NCBI RefSeq assembly: GCF_029714325.1
Contig: NZ_CP121666.1
Location: 6,851,001 to 6,915,000, forward strand
Length of the DNA: 64,000 bases
Source of the DNA: Bradyrhizobium sp. CB1717
Lineage (GTDB): Bacteria; Pseudomonadota; Alphaproteobacteria; Rhizobiales; Xanthobacteraceae
Direction of reading: 5' to 3'
Both the position numbers and the translations under genes were made by a program. Of this stretch, positions 8,285 to 13,592 are shown piece by piece. The notes below the pieces were generated by a model that saw only the letters and a program-made list of their open reading frames with translations, did not search any database and had not been told where the DNA came from. How positions within the stretch are numbered: the stretch's first letter is position 1; each line of letters begins with the position of its first letter.

Positions 8285-8371
8285 CGTAGGATGGGTAGAG
8301 CGCAGCGAAACCCATCAATGGCAGAGCAAGGTGCGAGATGATGGGTTTCGCTTCGCTCTACCCATCCTACG
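8285..8371. repeat. Intergenic palindromic repeat, GTAGGATGGGTAGAGCG family
   Basis: CGTAGGATGGGTAGAGCGCA pairs with CGCTCTACCCATCCTACG, with inner AAACCCATCA / TGATGGGTTT. It is the only copy of this variant in the window. Its right end overlaps the last codons of the DUF6285 gene and supplies that gene's stop codon (8367-8369). Confidence 0.88.
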
Positions 8372-8744
8372 AATCTCGCCCCAGCTCCCGCTTGTACGAC
8401 GCGTAGTTCGGCTGATCCACGGCCAGCTTGTCCATCGTGGTCGCCCACAGATGCTCGGCGAGCCCCGGCGTCGCCAAATCGACCTCGCCCCTGGCGATGC
8501 GCTCCGCAAGCACGCGGTTGAGCTCGGTCACCGAGCCGTCGACGCCGAGCAGCGCGCGCAGGCGCTCCACCTCCTTCGCTTCGCTCCCCTCCTCCTGCGT
8601 CAGCTGCCGCGTAACGAGCTCGAGGATGTTGATGGCGACGCGCAGCTTGAAGGCCTGATGGCCGGAGATCAGCGGCGTGATGTCGCTGCGGAGGAAGTCG
8701 GCGACTGACTTGGTCAGCTCGATCGGTGTCGGTTCGTCCTGCAT
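8367..8744 (-). CDS. DUF6285 (LvaB-like) small protein, 125 aa
   Basis: A small, mostly helical soluble protein with no signal peptide. The segment ITPLISGHQAFKLRVAINIL followed by an acidic EEGSEAKEVERL stretch is what I recognise as the DUF6285 family. It begins 3 bp after the stop of the APH-family kinase gene, and this pairing is widespread. In the Pseudomonas putida levulinate operon, the small LvaB acts with the kinase LvaA on 4-hydroxyvaleryl-CoA, and I infer an equivalent kinase partner here. The C-terminal codons and the TAG stop lie inside the palindromic repeat at 8285-8371, so the extreme C-terminus may vary among relatives. Confidence 0.75.
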   Translation of the reverse strand: MQDEPTPIELTKSVADFLRSDITPLISGHQAFKLRVAINILELVTRQLTQEEGSEAKEVERLRALLGVDGSVTELNRVLAERIARGEVDLATPGLAEHLWATTMDKLAVDQPNYASYKRELGRDS

Positions 8745-8747
8745 GCG

Positions 8748-9734
8748 TCAACTCCCGCGCGGCGCCAAGAGCCGCAACAGATCGATCTCGGTCTCGGAGG
8801 CGCGGCGGCCGATCATGGCGCGCTCCATGGAATGGTCCGGACCCTCGCGAAACCGCTGCATCATGCCGCCGCACATGATGCCCCAGCGCAGCGTCCCCAT
8901 CACTTCCCAGAACTTTACGCGCGCGGGATCGACTTTTCGGCCTGCCGCCTCGTAGCCCGCGAACAGCTCCTCGCGTGAGCCAAAACCGCCGACGGGCTTG
9001 TCGATCTCGCCGAAGCGCCAGGAGTTGACGCAGACCCAGCCGAGATCCTCCATGGGGTCGCCGAGATGGGCCAGCTCCCAGTCGAGCACGGCGCGGACGC
9101 CGTCGACGCCGATGATGAGATTGCCGTTGCGGAAATCGCCGTGCACCAGCGTGGTCTCGACTGAGGGGCCGGGATCGTGGTCGCGCAGCCAGCGCAACGC
9201 CAGCTCGAACACGGGTTTTGGCCAATTCAGGCTGCGATAGTCGCGCTCGAACTCAGAGATCTCCTGGGTCGCGCCGCGGCTGCGCAGCTCGGGCAATTTG
9301 TCCTGCGGCAGCCTGTGCAGGCCCGCGAGAATGCCGCCGATCTGCCGTGCGAGCAGCGGCCGCGCCGCGGCAAACTCCTCATCGCGAAGAATCTTGCGCG
9401 CGATGGTCTCGCCCTCGACCCGCTGCATGATGAAGCCGGTGCCGAGATCGTCCTCGGCCGTCAGCACATGCATCACGCGCGGCGACGGCACACCGGCTTC
9501 AAAGGCAAGCTGCATCAGCTGCGCTTCGGCGGCGAGGCCTGCCGCGCGCGTCGGCGCGGCACCATAGCCTTTCGGCGAGCGGCGCAGGATCGCGCCGATC
9601 GGCCCCTTGGGATGCACGATGTCGAAGCGCCAGGTCTCCTGGCTGGCGCCGCCGGAGAGTTTTGCCGCGCCGGTGACGCCGGTCGCGCCCTTGCACCAGC
9701 GCTGAACGCTGCGGGAAAGCTCCGTCTCGATCAT
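8748..9734 (-). CDS. APH-family phosphotransferase (LvaA / ACAD10-11 kinase-domain type), 328 aa
   Basis: The protein-kinase-like APH fold is visible. The catalytic loop LVHGDFRNGNL has H198, D200 and N205, and VLDWELAHLGDP carries the metal-binding D218. FIMQRVEGETI lies near 101-111. The sequence resembles the kinase domain of ACAD10/11 and bacterial LvaA more than antibiotic kinases, so the likely substrate is a hydroxyacyl-CoA. It overlaps the upstream PaaG-type crotonase by 4 bp (ATGA) and precedes the DUF6285 gene by 3 bp: a tightly coupled three-gene unit. An ACAD10/11-type dehydrogenase lies at 12315-13592. Substrate identity is inferred. Confidence 0.85.
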   Translation of the reverse strand: MIETELSRSVQRWCKGATGVTGAAKLSGGASQETWRFDIVHPKGPIGAILRRSPKGYGAAPTRAAGLAAEAQLMQLAFEAGVPSPRVMHVLTAEDDLGTGFIMQRVEGETIARKILRDEEFAAARPLLARQIGGILAGLHRLPQDKLPELRSRGATQEISEFERDYRSLNWPKPVFELALRWLRDHDPGPSVETTLVHGDFRNGNLIIGVDGVRAVLDWELAHLGDPMEDLGWVCVNSWRFGEIDKPVGGFGSREELFAGYEAAGRKVDPARVKFWEVMGTLRWGIMCGGMMQRFREGPDHSMERAMIGRRASETEIDLLRLLAPRGS

Positions 9735-12021: not shown

Positions 12022-12039
12022 GACCGACCGGACTCTCCT

Positions 12040-12127
12040 CGTCATTGCGAGGAGCTCCTGCGACGAAGCAATCCAGACTGCCGCCGCGGTAAAGATACTG
12101 GATTGCTTCGCTGCGCTCGCAATGACG
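12040..12127. repeat. Intergenic palindromic repeat, CATTGCGAG family
   Basis: CGTCATTGCGAGGAGC at the left, GCGCTCGCAATGACG at the right, and inner AAGCAATCCAG / CTGGATTGCTT. It belongs to the five-copy family listed at 8186-8272. Confidence 0.9.
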
Positions 12128-12314
12128 GAGTCCTGGGGATCGGACGGCGCTCCAGCCCACTTGCGCGCCGCCCCCCATTCAAACAACATTTCAAACGCTC
12201 TCGCGAAATTCCATCGCGTGGCAATGGCCCCACGTGAAAAATACGCGCTCGCACTTTGGCGTCGCTACGACTATTCTGCCGGCCAACGCGAACTCAGCGC
12301 CCCCGGGAGGACCA

Positions 12315-13592
12315 ATGACAAAACACACCTACATTCCCCGCATCACCAACTACGCGCTCAATCCGGGCGACGAGCTCAACGACCTGCGCATGTCGGACCA
12401 AGTCCGACCGCTCTACGATCACGTCAAGAAGTTCATCCGCGACACCGTCGAGCCGATGTCGATCGAATTCGCCAAGGCGGGCGAAGGCAAGGAGGATCGC
12501 TGGAGCTTCACGCCGAAGCAGCTCGAGGTGCTGGAGAAGGCCAAGAACAAGGCCAAGCAGGAAGGCCTCTGGAACTTCTTCCTGCCCGATGACGACACCG
12601 GCCAGGGCCTGAAGAATCTCGACTATGCCTATATCGCGGTCGAGCTCGGCAAGAGCCCGCTGGCCTCCGAGACCATGAACTGCTCGGCGCCGGACACCGG
12701 CAACATGGAGGTGCTGGAGCGCGTCGGCACCAAGGAGCAGAAGGAGAAGTGGCTGAAGCCGCTGCTCAACGGCGAGATCCGCTCCGCCTATGTCATGACC
12801 GAGCCGAACGTCGCCTCCTCAGACGCCAAGAACATCTCGACCACGGCCAAGCTCGTCGGCGACGAATGGGTCATCAACGGCGAGAAGTATTACATCTCCG
12901 GTCTCGGCGATCCCCGCTGCAAGATCCTCATCGTGATGGTGAAGACCAATCCGGACGCAGCGCCGAGCAAGCAGCAGTCGCAGATCCTGGTGCCGCGCGA
13001 CACGCCCGGCGTCGAGGTGCTCGGCCCCATGTACGTGTTCGGCCAGGATCACGCCCCGCGCGGTCACATGCACATGCGCTTCAACAATGTGCGCGTGCCA
13101 AAGGAGAACATGCTGCTCGGCGAAGGCCGCGGTTTCGAGATCTCGCAGCTGCGCCTCGGTCCGGGCCGCATCCATCACTGCATGCGCACCATCGGAAAGG
13201 CCGAGAAGGCGCTGGATCTGATGGTGCAGCGTGGCCTCACCCGCGAAGCCTTCGGCAAGAAGATCGCCCATCTCGGCGGCAACATGCAGATCATCGCGCA
13301 GGCGCGCTGCGAGATCGAGGCGATGCGGCTGATGGTGCTGAAGGCCGCCAAGGCGATGGACGTGCTCGGCAACAAGGAGGCCCGCGTCTGGGTCTCCATG
13401 GTCAAGGCCATGGTGCCCGAGCGTGCCTGCAAGATCATCGATCAGGCAATCCAGATGCACGGCGCCACCGGCATCTCGCACTGGACCCCGCTCGCGGAGA
13501 TGTATCAGGACGTGCGACACCTGCGTTTTGCCGACGGTCCGGACGAGGTGCACTGGATGGTGGTGGGACGGCACGAACTGAGCATGGCGTAA
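12315..13592 (+). CDS. Acyl-CoA dehydrogenase of the ACAD10/ACAD11 (LvaC-like) type, 425 aa
   Basis: The sequence follows the C-terminal dehydrogenase domain of ACAD10/11 closely: NMEVLERVGT, MTEPNVASSDAKNI, a DPRC motif, QQSQILVPRDTPG, then GRGFEISQLRLGPGRIHHCM and LRFADGPDEVH. The usual catalytic Glu-Gly is Asp-Gly (D407), as in that subfamily. Such enzymes, with an APH-type kinase, convert 4-hydroxyacyl-CoA to an enoyl-CoA by way of a 4-phosphoacyl-CoA. The matching kinase and DUF6285 gene lie 2.6 kb away on the other strand. The start at 12315 has GGGAGG 4 bp before it; an earlier in-frame ATG at 12234 lacks support. The substrate is inferred. Confidence 0.88.
   Translation: MTKHTYIPRITNYALNPGDELNDLRMSDQVRPLYDHVKKFIRDTVEPMSIEFAKAGEGKEDRWSFTPKQLEVLEKAKNKAKQEGLWNFFLPDDDTGQGLKNLDYAYIAVELGKSPLASETMNCSAPDTGNMEVLERVGTKEQKEKWLKPLLNGEIRSAYVMTEPNVASSDAKNISTTAKLVGDEWVINGEKYYISGLGDPRCKILIVMVKTNPDAAPSKQQSQILVPRDTPGVEVLGPMYVFGQDHAPRGHMHMRFNNVRVPKENMLLGEGRGFEISQLRLGPGRIHHCMRTIGKAEKALDLMVQRGLTREAFGKKIAHLGGNMQIIAQARCEIEAMRLMVLKAAKAMDVLGNKEARVWVSMVKAMVPERACKIIDQAIQMHGATGISHWTPLAEMYQDVRHLRFADGPDEVHWMVVGRHELSMA

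Follow-up and report, generated by a model that had tools for sequence, protein, structure and literature searches.

A conserved kinase, DUF6285 and acyl-CoA dehydrogenase locus of Bradyrhizobium as a candidate ATP-dependent acyl-CoA dehydroxylation unit

Which acyl-CoA dehydrogenase (ACAD) is the partner of the APH-fold kinase and the DUF6285 protein that are encoded side by side in Bradyrhizobium sp. CB1717? The question arises from a stretch of 64,000 nucleotides (contig NZ_CP121666.1, positions 6,851,001 to 6,915,000), which is called the window here and in which the pair has an ACAD gene on either side. The initial annotation regarded the interval 8367..13592 of the window as an LvaAB/LvaC-like module for 4-hydroxyacyl-CoA dehydroxylation. 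This interval left out the constant partner, an ACAD at 5906-7180 that does not have the ACAD10/11 signature. This enzyme, which we call class C, is the conserved partner of the kinase/DUF6285 pair. We propose, with a probability of roughly 0.5, that the genes form a conserved acyl-CoA catabolic locus, the core of which (kinase, DUF6285 and class C ACAD) would be an ATP-dependent dehydroxylation unit. The four genes at issue are as follows.

5906..7180, minus strand: class C ACAD, with no His-Cys-Met-Arg (HCMR) clamp and with a Glu base (co-occurrence, adjacency and active-site columns)
8367..8744, minus strand: DUF6285 protein, putative LvaB-type kinase subunit, predicted to be all-helical (PF19802, 112 bits)
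8748..9734, minus strand: APH-fold kinase of the DUF6285-linked clade (LvaA superfamily; PF01636, 124 bits)
12315..13592, plus strand: class A (ACAD10/11-type) ACAD with ACAD domains, R280 (13152-13154), H288, R291 (13185-13187) and D407 (13533-13535); Asp 407 is counted from the ATG at 12315, and the enzyme is called the D407 ACAD below

We analysed the distribution of these genes in a sample of 289 Alphaproteobacteria genomes. Class C was found in 41 genomes, DUF6285 in 66 and both in 40 (23 of 24 families; Fisher p 3e-30, with phylogeny handled by the family count only). Among the 105 genomes with a class A ACAD, DUF6285 was present in 39 of the 40 that have class C versus 6 of the 65 that do not. 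As a control, crotonase relatives (at least 267 bits) were counted: they occur in 33 genomes, 27 of which have class C (27/41), and this association is weaker than that of DUF6285. In three genomes of only 1.4 Mb (G367, G146 and G271; loci L081, L082 and L077; G and L numbers are our handles for genomes and loci), the kinase-DUF6285 genes, class C, a class A ACAD and a crotonase are present at separate places.

The named class C loci from GTDB species are the 80 best matches to a query in which a Variovorax sequence came first, a choice made to avoid Bradyrhizobium filling the list. They include loci of Variovorax, Marinobacter, Alloalcanivorax and Novosphingobium. The kinase and DUF6285 lie within 3 kb of class C in 55 of these best 80 loci and in 35 of the 59 outside Bradyrhizobiaceae; one other locus has DUF6285 only and one has the kinase only. 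The end of DUF6285 is at most 250 bp from the class C match in 34 of the 80. Kinase, DUF6285 and class C are thus often a trio resembling lvaABC. In the 59 loci outside Bradyrhizobiaceae, relatives of the crotonase were found in six, of the D407 ACAD in one, of the short-chain dehydrogenase/reductase (SDR) in one and of the Baeyer-Villiger-type monooxygenase in none. A Sulfitobacter plasmid (L165) repeats the set of the window, with ligase, kinase, DUF6285, class C, crotonases and thiolase; its class C is 71% identical to that of the window, and its kinase, ligase and crotonase are 47-49% identical. At two Novosphingobium loci (L258 and L278), the 20 flanking open reading frames (ORFs) scanned include no acyl-CoA gene: they are housekeeping genes (DNA polymerase I, AAA ATPase, mechanosensitive channel, chaperonin, S-adenosylmethionine synthetase, HisS-like and similar) or have no Pfam match.

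If class C is the partner, which ACAD stands beside the pair in genomes that lack it? Of the 66 DUF6285 genomes, 53 were examined. At a distance of at most 1 kb from the pair, an ACAD with the HCMR motif is present in 15 of the 21 genomes without class C (12 being LvaC-type) versus 3 of the 32 with class C (p 4e-6). Because an HCMR ACAD is beside the pair mostly where class C is absent, class C seems to take the place of LvaC. Class C itself is within 1 kb of the pair in only 4 of the 32 class C genomes examined and is unlinked in the rest.

In the genus Bradyrhizobium, DUF6285 is present in 93 of 98 genomes, source genome included. The source genome, assembled as a single contig of 9.23 Mb, contains one DUF6285 match, and the nearest named relatives are Bradyrhizobium proteins with 90-94% identity. 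Crotonase, kinase, DUF6285, second crotonase and class C are kept together in 18 of the 20 loci fetched from the Bradyrhizobium family; therefore, given both counts, the arrangement is not due to chance. The two exceptions are L047, which has no ACAD, and L043, a compact extra copy of kinase, DUF6285 and ACAD in a genome (G022) whose usual locus is L044. Class C is present in 19 of the 20 loci, and the second crotonase is also in place in 19, the compact copy L043 being the one without it. The second copy of the trio beside the usual locus in G022 suggests that the trio may be mobile as a unit. Compact trios with short gaps are seen in some Bradyrhizobium genomes (L252, L256, L316 and L043). 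Two loci are apparently decaying, an assembly error being possible in both: L047 (G091) has lost class C and LIG2 and its kinase match is split over two frames, and in L041 (G053) DUF6285 is split over two frames.

What is the role of DUF6285 in the pair? We analysed 101 DUF6285 loci selected from longer match lists (L001 and L030-L129), namely that of the window, 20 of the Bradyrhizobium family and 80 of other Alphaproteobacteria and Pseudomonadota. All 101 of these loci have the kinase gene immediately before DUF6285 and on the same strand. In 20 of them the two are in a single open frame with the kinase first, the DUF6285 match being partial in five (L100, L101, L122, L123 and L124). When a fusion was used as the query (E 1e-30), 5071 proteins matched, and the best 120 of the 5071 all have both Pfam domains. 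An AlphaFold2 model of one natural kinase-DUF6285 fusion had a predicted local distance difference test score (pLDDT) of 93.6 and a predicted TM-score (pTM) of 0.91; DUF6285 modelled alone had a pTM of 0.52. Together, the adjacency, the single-frame fusions and the fusion model support the view that DUF6285 is a subunit of the kinase, not an enzyme in its own right. At two loci (L062 and L066), one DUF6285 is common to two tandem kinases.

The kinase motifs of the window are intact (HGDFRNGN at 198 and DWE at 218). In the annotated lva operon of a P. aeruginosa plasmid (NZ_MF344569; L166), the genes are kinase, 'lvaB', ACAD, SDR, ligase, DUF485 and symporter, and the LvaB of this plasmid is itself PF19802 (DUF6285; 85 bits). 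With the APH motifs and the adjacent DUF6285, the LvaA/LvaB-like character given to the pair by the initial annotation stands: by profile and motif, the pair is a member of the LvaA/LvaB superfamily. The kinase reaches no curated aminoglycoside phosphotransferase model: the APH(3') model gave 30.7 bits against a cut-off of 205, and all 10 NCBIfam matches were far under their cut-offs. In a quick maximum-likelihood kinase tree of 102 rows, ACAD10/11-type kinases without DUF6285 were split from the remaining kinases with a support of 100. The plasmid LvaA grouped with kinases linked to LvaC-type (class B) ACADs, and the window kinase was outside that group. Our literature search found no paper on DUF6285, and a search for 4-hydroxyacyl-CoA, kinase, ACAD and bacteria turned up only work on ACAD10/11 (PMC12440821, PMC11342911). 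Comparisons with the literature are based on partial texts of these two papers and of PMC8449060.

Two plasmids show the pair in other surroundings. In Cupriavidus pinatubonensis (L163), the neighbours of kinase-DUF6285 are a dapA-like gene and one for an indolepyruvate ferredoxin oxidoreductase. No ACAD is annotated there, and so the pair may have other uses. In Thermus thermophilus (L164), the genes for an LvaC-type ACAD, the kinase and DUF6285 are separated by mere bases from a following gene of the histidine phosphatase family.

How would such a kinase hold its substrate? The partial text of PMC12440821 describes two arginines of the ACAD11 kinase (R86 and R176) that were modelled on CoA. 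We compared the corresponding columns, one before the alpha-C Glu (R86) and one before the catalytic region (R176). Kinases without DUF6285 have Arg at the first column in 12 of 13 cases (one gap) and at the second in 13 of 13. The DUF6285-linked kinases (n=95) have five Arg and one Lys at the first column and no Arg and three Lys at the second; the plasmid LvaA is also without these arginines. The window kinase has Ala and Gln and is accordingly not of the ACAD10/11 type at these columns. Both groups have the catalytic His, Asp and Asn without exception. Because the CoA-contacting Arg residues are nearly absent from DUF6285-linked kinases, this pattern suggests that DUF6285 supplies part of the docking of the CoA substrate.

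Does the pair act with the D407 ACAD instead? According to this explanation, the kinase and DUF6285 phosphorylate a 4-hydroxyacyl-CoA, the D407 ACAD removes the phosphate as in LvaABC, and class C is an ordinary beta-oxidation enzyme. All the known signature residues of ACAD10/11 and LvaC are present in the D407 ACAD (R280, H288, C289, M290, R291 and D407), and its closest PDB entries are those of ACAD11 (8v3u, 392 bits, 8v3v and 2wbi) and then 4hr3 (369 bits), the next of the 60 matches listed having 139 bits. Thus, the earlier assignment of this enzyme to the ACAD10/11 type is supported by the whole signature. The Asp in place of the usual catalytic Glu, which had been singled out, is indeed at 407 but is not peculiar: all 49 class A sequences have the Arg, HCMR and Asp, which makes Asp standard for the class and normal for ACAD10/11-LvaC. 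The partial text of PMC12440821 reports that these residues are essential in ACAD11. The distribution also offers some support, because 17 of the 18 genomes with D407 orthologs (at least 72% identity; 18 of 289) have both DUF6285 and class C. Moreover, the D407 ACAD is in the fetched stretch of 12 of the 20 Bradyrhizobium-family loci, where VOC and glutathione S-transferase (GST) genes are mostly gained or lost together with it. Seven genomes were checked for the remaining loci. The ortholog is 10-12 kb off in G001 and G031 and unlinked in G015. However, G053, G083, G091 and G648 have no D407 ortholog above 57% identity and keep the kinase/DUF6285 locus (partly broken in G091 and G053). The last of the 20, L043, is the second copy in the genome possessing a D407 ACAD at L044.

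Outside the genus, no kinase was found in 18 fetched stretches of 12-20 kb around D407 orthologs (L206-L223). Class C is far more constant. The source genome has four ACADs of the class A kind, one of them beside an ACAD10/11-type kinase: at 4135734-4138168 of contig C1 (G000; L225), an unfused class A ACAD is followed by a kinase without DUF6285, and this pair could serve the D407 ACAD. For these reasons we consider it unlikely that the D407 ACAD completes the reaction of the window pair. The conserved module of kinase/DUF6285 and D407 ACAD is likewise not upheld: the window kinase does not fall in the LvaA clade of the quick tree, four relatives are without the ortholog, and a relative of it was found in only 1 of the 59 class C loci. 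Judged by its residues, the D407 ACAD is a true member of the ACAD10/11 type, but its presence in the locus is inconstant. It could be served by the window kinase or by a separate ACAD10/11-type kinase elsewhere in the genome.

The active site of class C then poses a puzzle. In 57 of 57 class C sequences, the residues are F280, R287, Q288, A289, A290 and S291 with Glu at 407 (numbering of the D407 ACAD), and the counterpart columns of the D407 ACAD are R280, H287, H288, C289, M290, R291 and D407. The ACAD10/11-LvaC signature is therefore absent from class C. R287 and Q288 are invariant polar residues where other aligned ACADs are mostly hydrophobic. The best PDB sequence match of class C is 6fah_C (CarC, 159 bits), and a quick ACAD tree places class C in its own group (support 100), apart from the HCMR group (99). 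In the partial text of PMC12440821, Ala or Leu substitution of the Arg/His/Arg of ACAD11 was most disruptive and ACAD activity was reported to be ablated. That of PMC11342911 proposes oxidation, phosphate elimination and reduction within one active site.

Because class C lacks the clamp and the Asp, whose substitution abolished ACAD11 turnover, it may be an ordinary dehydrogenase of the same pathway. It would then act before or after dehydroxylation, and a class A ACAD or an unlinked lyase would remove the phosphate. The Glu base, the missing clamp and the separate position in the tree agree with this idea, as does the presence of a class A ACAD in 40 of the 41 class C genomes and of a strong ACAD10/11-type kinase match in 40 of the 42 genomes searched (the 41 with class C and G234; exceptions G149 and G317). 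However, G149 (92% complete) keeps class C and kinase/DUF6285, and searches of it found neither a class A ACAD (E 1e-80) nor a strong match to an ACAD10/11-type kinase. Furthermore, the trio is without any other acyl-CoA gene among the ORFs scanned at the two Novosphingobium loci, class C occupies the place of LvaC beside the pair, and R287 and Q288 are invariant. An ordinary role for class C thus seems improbable to us, and a direct role in the dehydroxylation step is favoured. The lack of clamp and Asp then points to clamp-free phosphate elimination, to split half-reactions or to oxidation only. Class C may hold the phosphate another way, with R287 and Q288 on the same helix, or may only oxidise while other enzymes finish; here, these would possibly be the SDR at 2972-3844 and the crotonases.

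How might the proposed dehydroxylation unit work? It builds on what we observed, namely gene identities, adjacency, single-frame fusions, co-occurrence and active-site residues. By analogy with LvaAB and ACAD10/11, the kinase would phosphorylate a hydroxyl of a hydroxyacyl-CoA, most likely at C4; DUF6285 would be packed against the kinase and would assist in binding the CoA substrate. Class C would deprotonate C2 and oxidise C2-C3 via Glu and FAD, as ordinary ACADs do. The phosphate would then depart to give a dienoyl- or enoyl-CoA. In the weakest step, the 2,4-dienoyl-CoA-reductase-like SDR and the crotonases would return the product to 2-enoyl-CoA.

Besides the missing clamp and Asp of class C, several observations weigh against this unit. 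The dienoyl-CoA-reductase-like SDR is present in only 13 of the 41 class C genomes, and G222 has class C without DUF6285. In G136, G264 and G361 (one family; L193 and L197), class C directly follows an ACAD10/11-type kinase, not the DUF6285 pair. Neither kinase nor DUF6285 is within 3 kb of class C in 11 of the 80 named loci with flanks of at least 5 kb (in L251 the pair is about 6 kb off), and 12 further loci with shorter flanks are also without either gene. The co-occurrence is corrected for phylogeny by the family count alone, and the CoA-dock idea derives from residue loss in the kinase, not from any DUF6285 residue. A bolder version is doubtful, although it deserves mention: the trio would be a second, independently recruited ATP-dependent acyl-CoA dehydroxylation, in which class C eliminates phosphate without HCMR/Asp and DUF6285 is a CoA dock replacing the arginines of ACAD10/11 kinases. 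Class C may in that case use a new Arg287/Gln288/Glu site, or oxidation and elimination in the oxidised state may be followed by a separate reductase. Because the trio is alone among housekeeping genes at the two Novosphingobium loci, it would in this version serve generally for acyl-CoAs that carry a hydroxyl. As for substrates, lactone-derived or 4-hydroxy fatty acids had been suggested; we found no link between the locus and lactones or any one hydroxy acid.

What else surrounds the core? On the minus strand, the order is crotonase, kinase (4-bp overlap) and DUF6285 (3-bp gap), and the SDR, VOC protein and D407 ACAD are on the plus strand. ORFs and Pfam agree with the gene positions, gap and overlap of the initial annotation, which also correctly placed a Baeyer-Villiger-type enzyme nearby. 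Its "PaaG-type" crotonase is acceptable only loosely: the enzyme passes NF004635 but misses the PaaG equivalog TIGR02280 (269.5 versus 345.15 bits). The SDR at 2972-3844 is below the 2,4-dienoyl-CoA reductase model NF005811, although its best PDB match is DECR1. The other features are listed below.

377..1921, minus strand: acyl-CoA synthetase, PRK12406 (NF009071 927 bits, cut-off 701)
2057..2869, minus strand: crotonase, PRK07509 family (NF005699 369 bits, cut-off 249)
2972..3844, plus strand: 2,4-dienoyl-CoA reductase-like SDR (DECR1 1w6u 205.5 bits; NF005811 232 bits, under cut-off 318)
4209..5789, plus strand: acyl-CoA synthetase, PRK06187 (49% identity to the ligase beside the Sulfitobacter trio)
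7350..8171, plus strand: second crotonase, between class C ACAD and DUF6285 (PF00378)
9731..10519, minus strand: crotonase, PRK05981 family, probable enoyl-CoA isomerase/hydratase (NF004635 485 bits, cut-off 351; PDB 4fzw_C 230 bits; ECH_1 188 bits)
10752..11531, plus strand: SDR, ATG at 10752 (30% identity to plasmid LvaD)
11641..12021, plus strand: VOC (glyoxalase-superfamily) protein, mostly accompanying the class A ACAD (PF00903 31 bits)
13818..14693, minus strand: glutathione-dependent disulfide-bond oxidoreductase (GST), accompanying the class A ACAD (NF008731 539 bits)
about 14940..16595, minus strand: flavin monooxygenase of Baeyer-Villiger type, start uncertain (profile matches)
16852..17985, plus strand: nitronate monooxygenase/FabK-like flavoprotein (TIGR03151 154 bits, under cut-off 453)
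18101..19618, plus strand: acetyl-CoA acetyltransferase-like protein, PRK08257 (NF006106 927 bits, cut-off 684)

A cytochrome P450 gene (PF00067, 113 bits) is at 53090-54361 of the window, about 40 kb from the cluster.

How does the locus compare with known systems? In 2024-2025, mammalian ACAD10/11 were assigned the route in which 4-hydroxy acids are phosphorylated (partial texts of PMC12440821 and PMC11342911). Class C, whose genomes almost always have kinase/DUF6285 as well, does not possess the residues reported to be essential there. Either this chemistry has a wider scope than assumed, or its half-reactions are divisible among enzymes. DUF6285 gains a concrete putative role, and the locus cautions against pairing a kinase with the nearest "right-looking" ACAD.

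The LvaA/B/C system is that of the P. putida levulinate operon, compared here through the copy on plasmid NZ_MF344569. It resembles the window in having an APH kinase, then a DUF6285 subunit, plus an ACAD. LvaA is 34.5% identical to the window kinase, and LvaB and the window DUF6285 are both PF19802 with no BLASTP match at 1e-3. In contrast to LvaABC, the window kinase is outside the LvaA/class B clade, and the constant ACAD is class C, not LvaC type. The mammalian kinase-ACAD proteins ACAD10 and ACAD11 share Arg, HCMR and Asp with the window ACAD at 12315-13592, and the source genome has the unfused kinase and ACAD pair of this type described above. However, the window kinase matches the ACAD10/11 type at 43 bits only, is without the two CoA-contacting arginines and has DUF6285. 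The 25-hydroxysteroid kinase of Sterolibacterium denitrificans (9fsg, 9ft5) has the same kinase fold, matched by the fusion model of a relative only, and shares the idea of ATP-dependent dehydration via a phosphoester. If the window kinase likewise phosphorylated a hydroxyl outside acyl-CoA, the ACADs would act on a later dehydration product. We think this very improbable. The steroid enzyme acts on non-CoA tertiary alcohols, its lyase was unidentified in 2021, and the partial text of the source describes no DUF6285 or ACAD partner. Finally, ordinary ACADs (CarC 6fah_C and MCAD) have the Glu base and fold family in common with class C, but class C differs from them by the invariant F280, R287, Q288 and S291 in the active-site helix and by its close association with a kinase.

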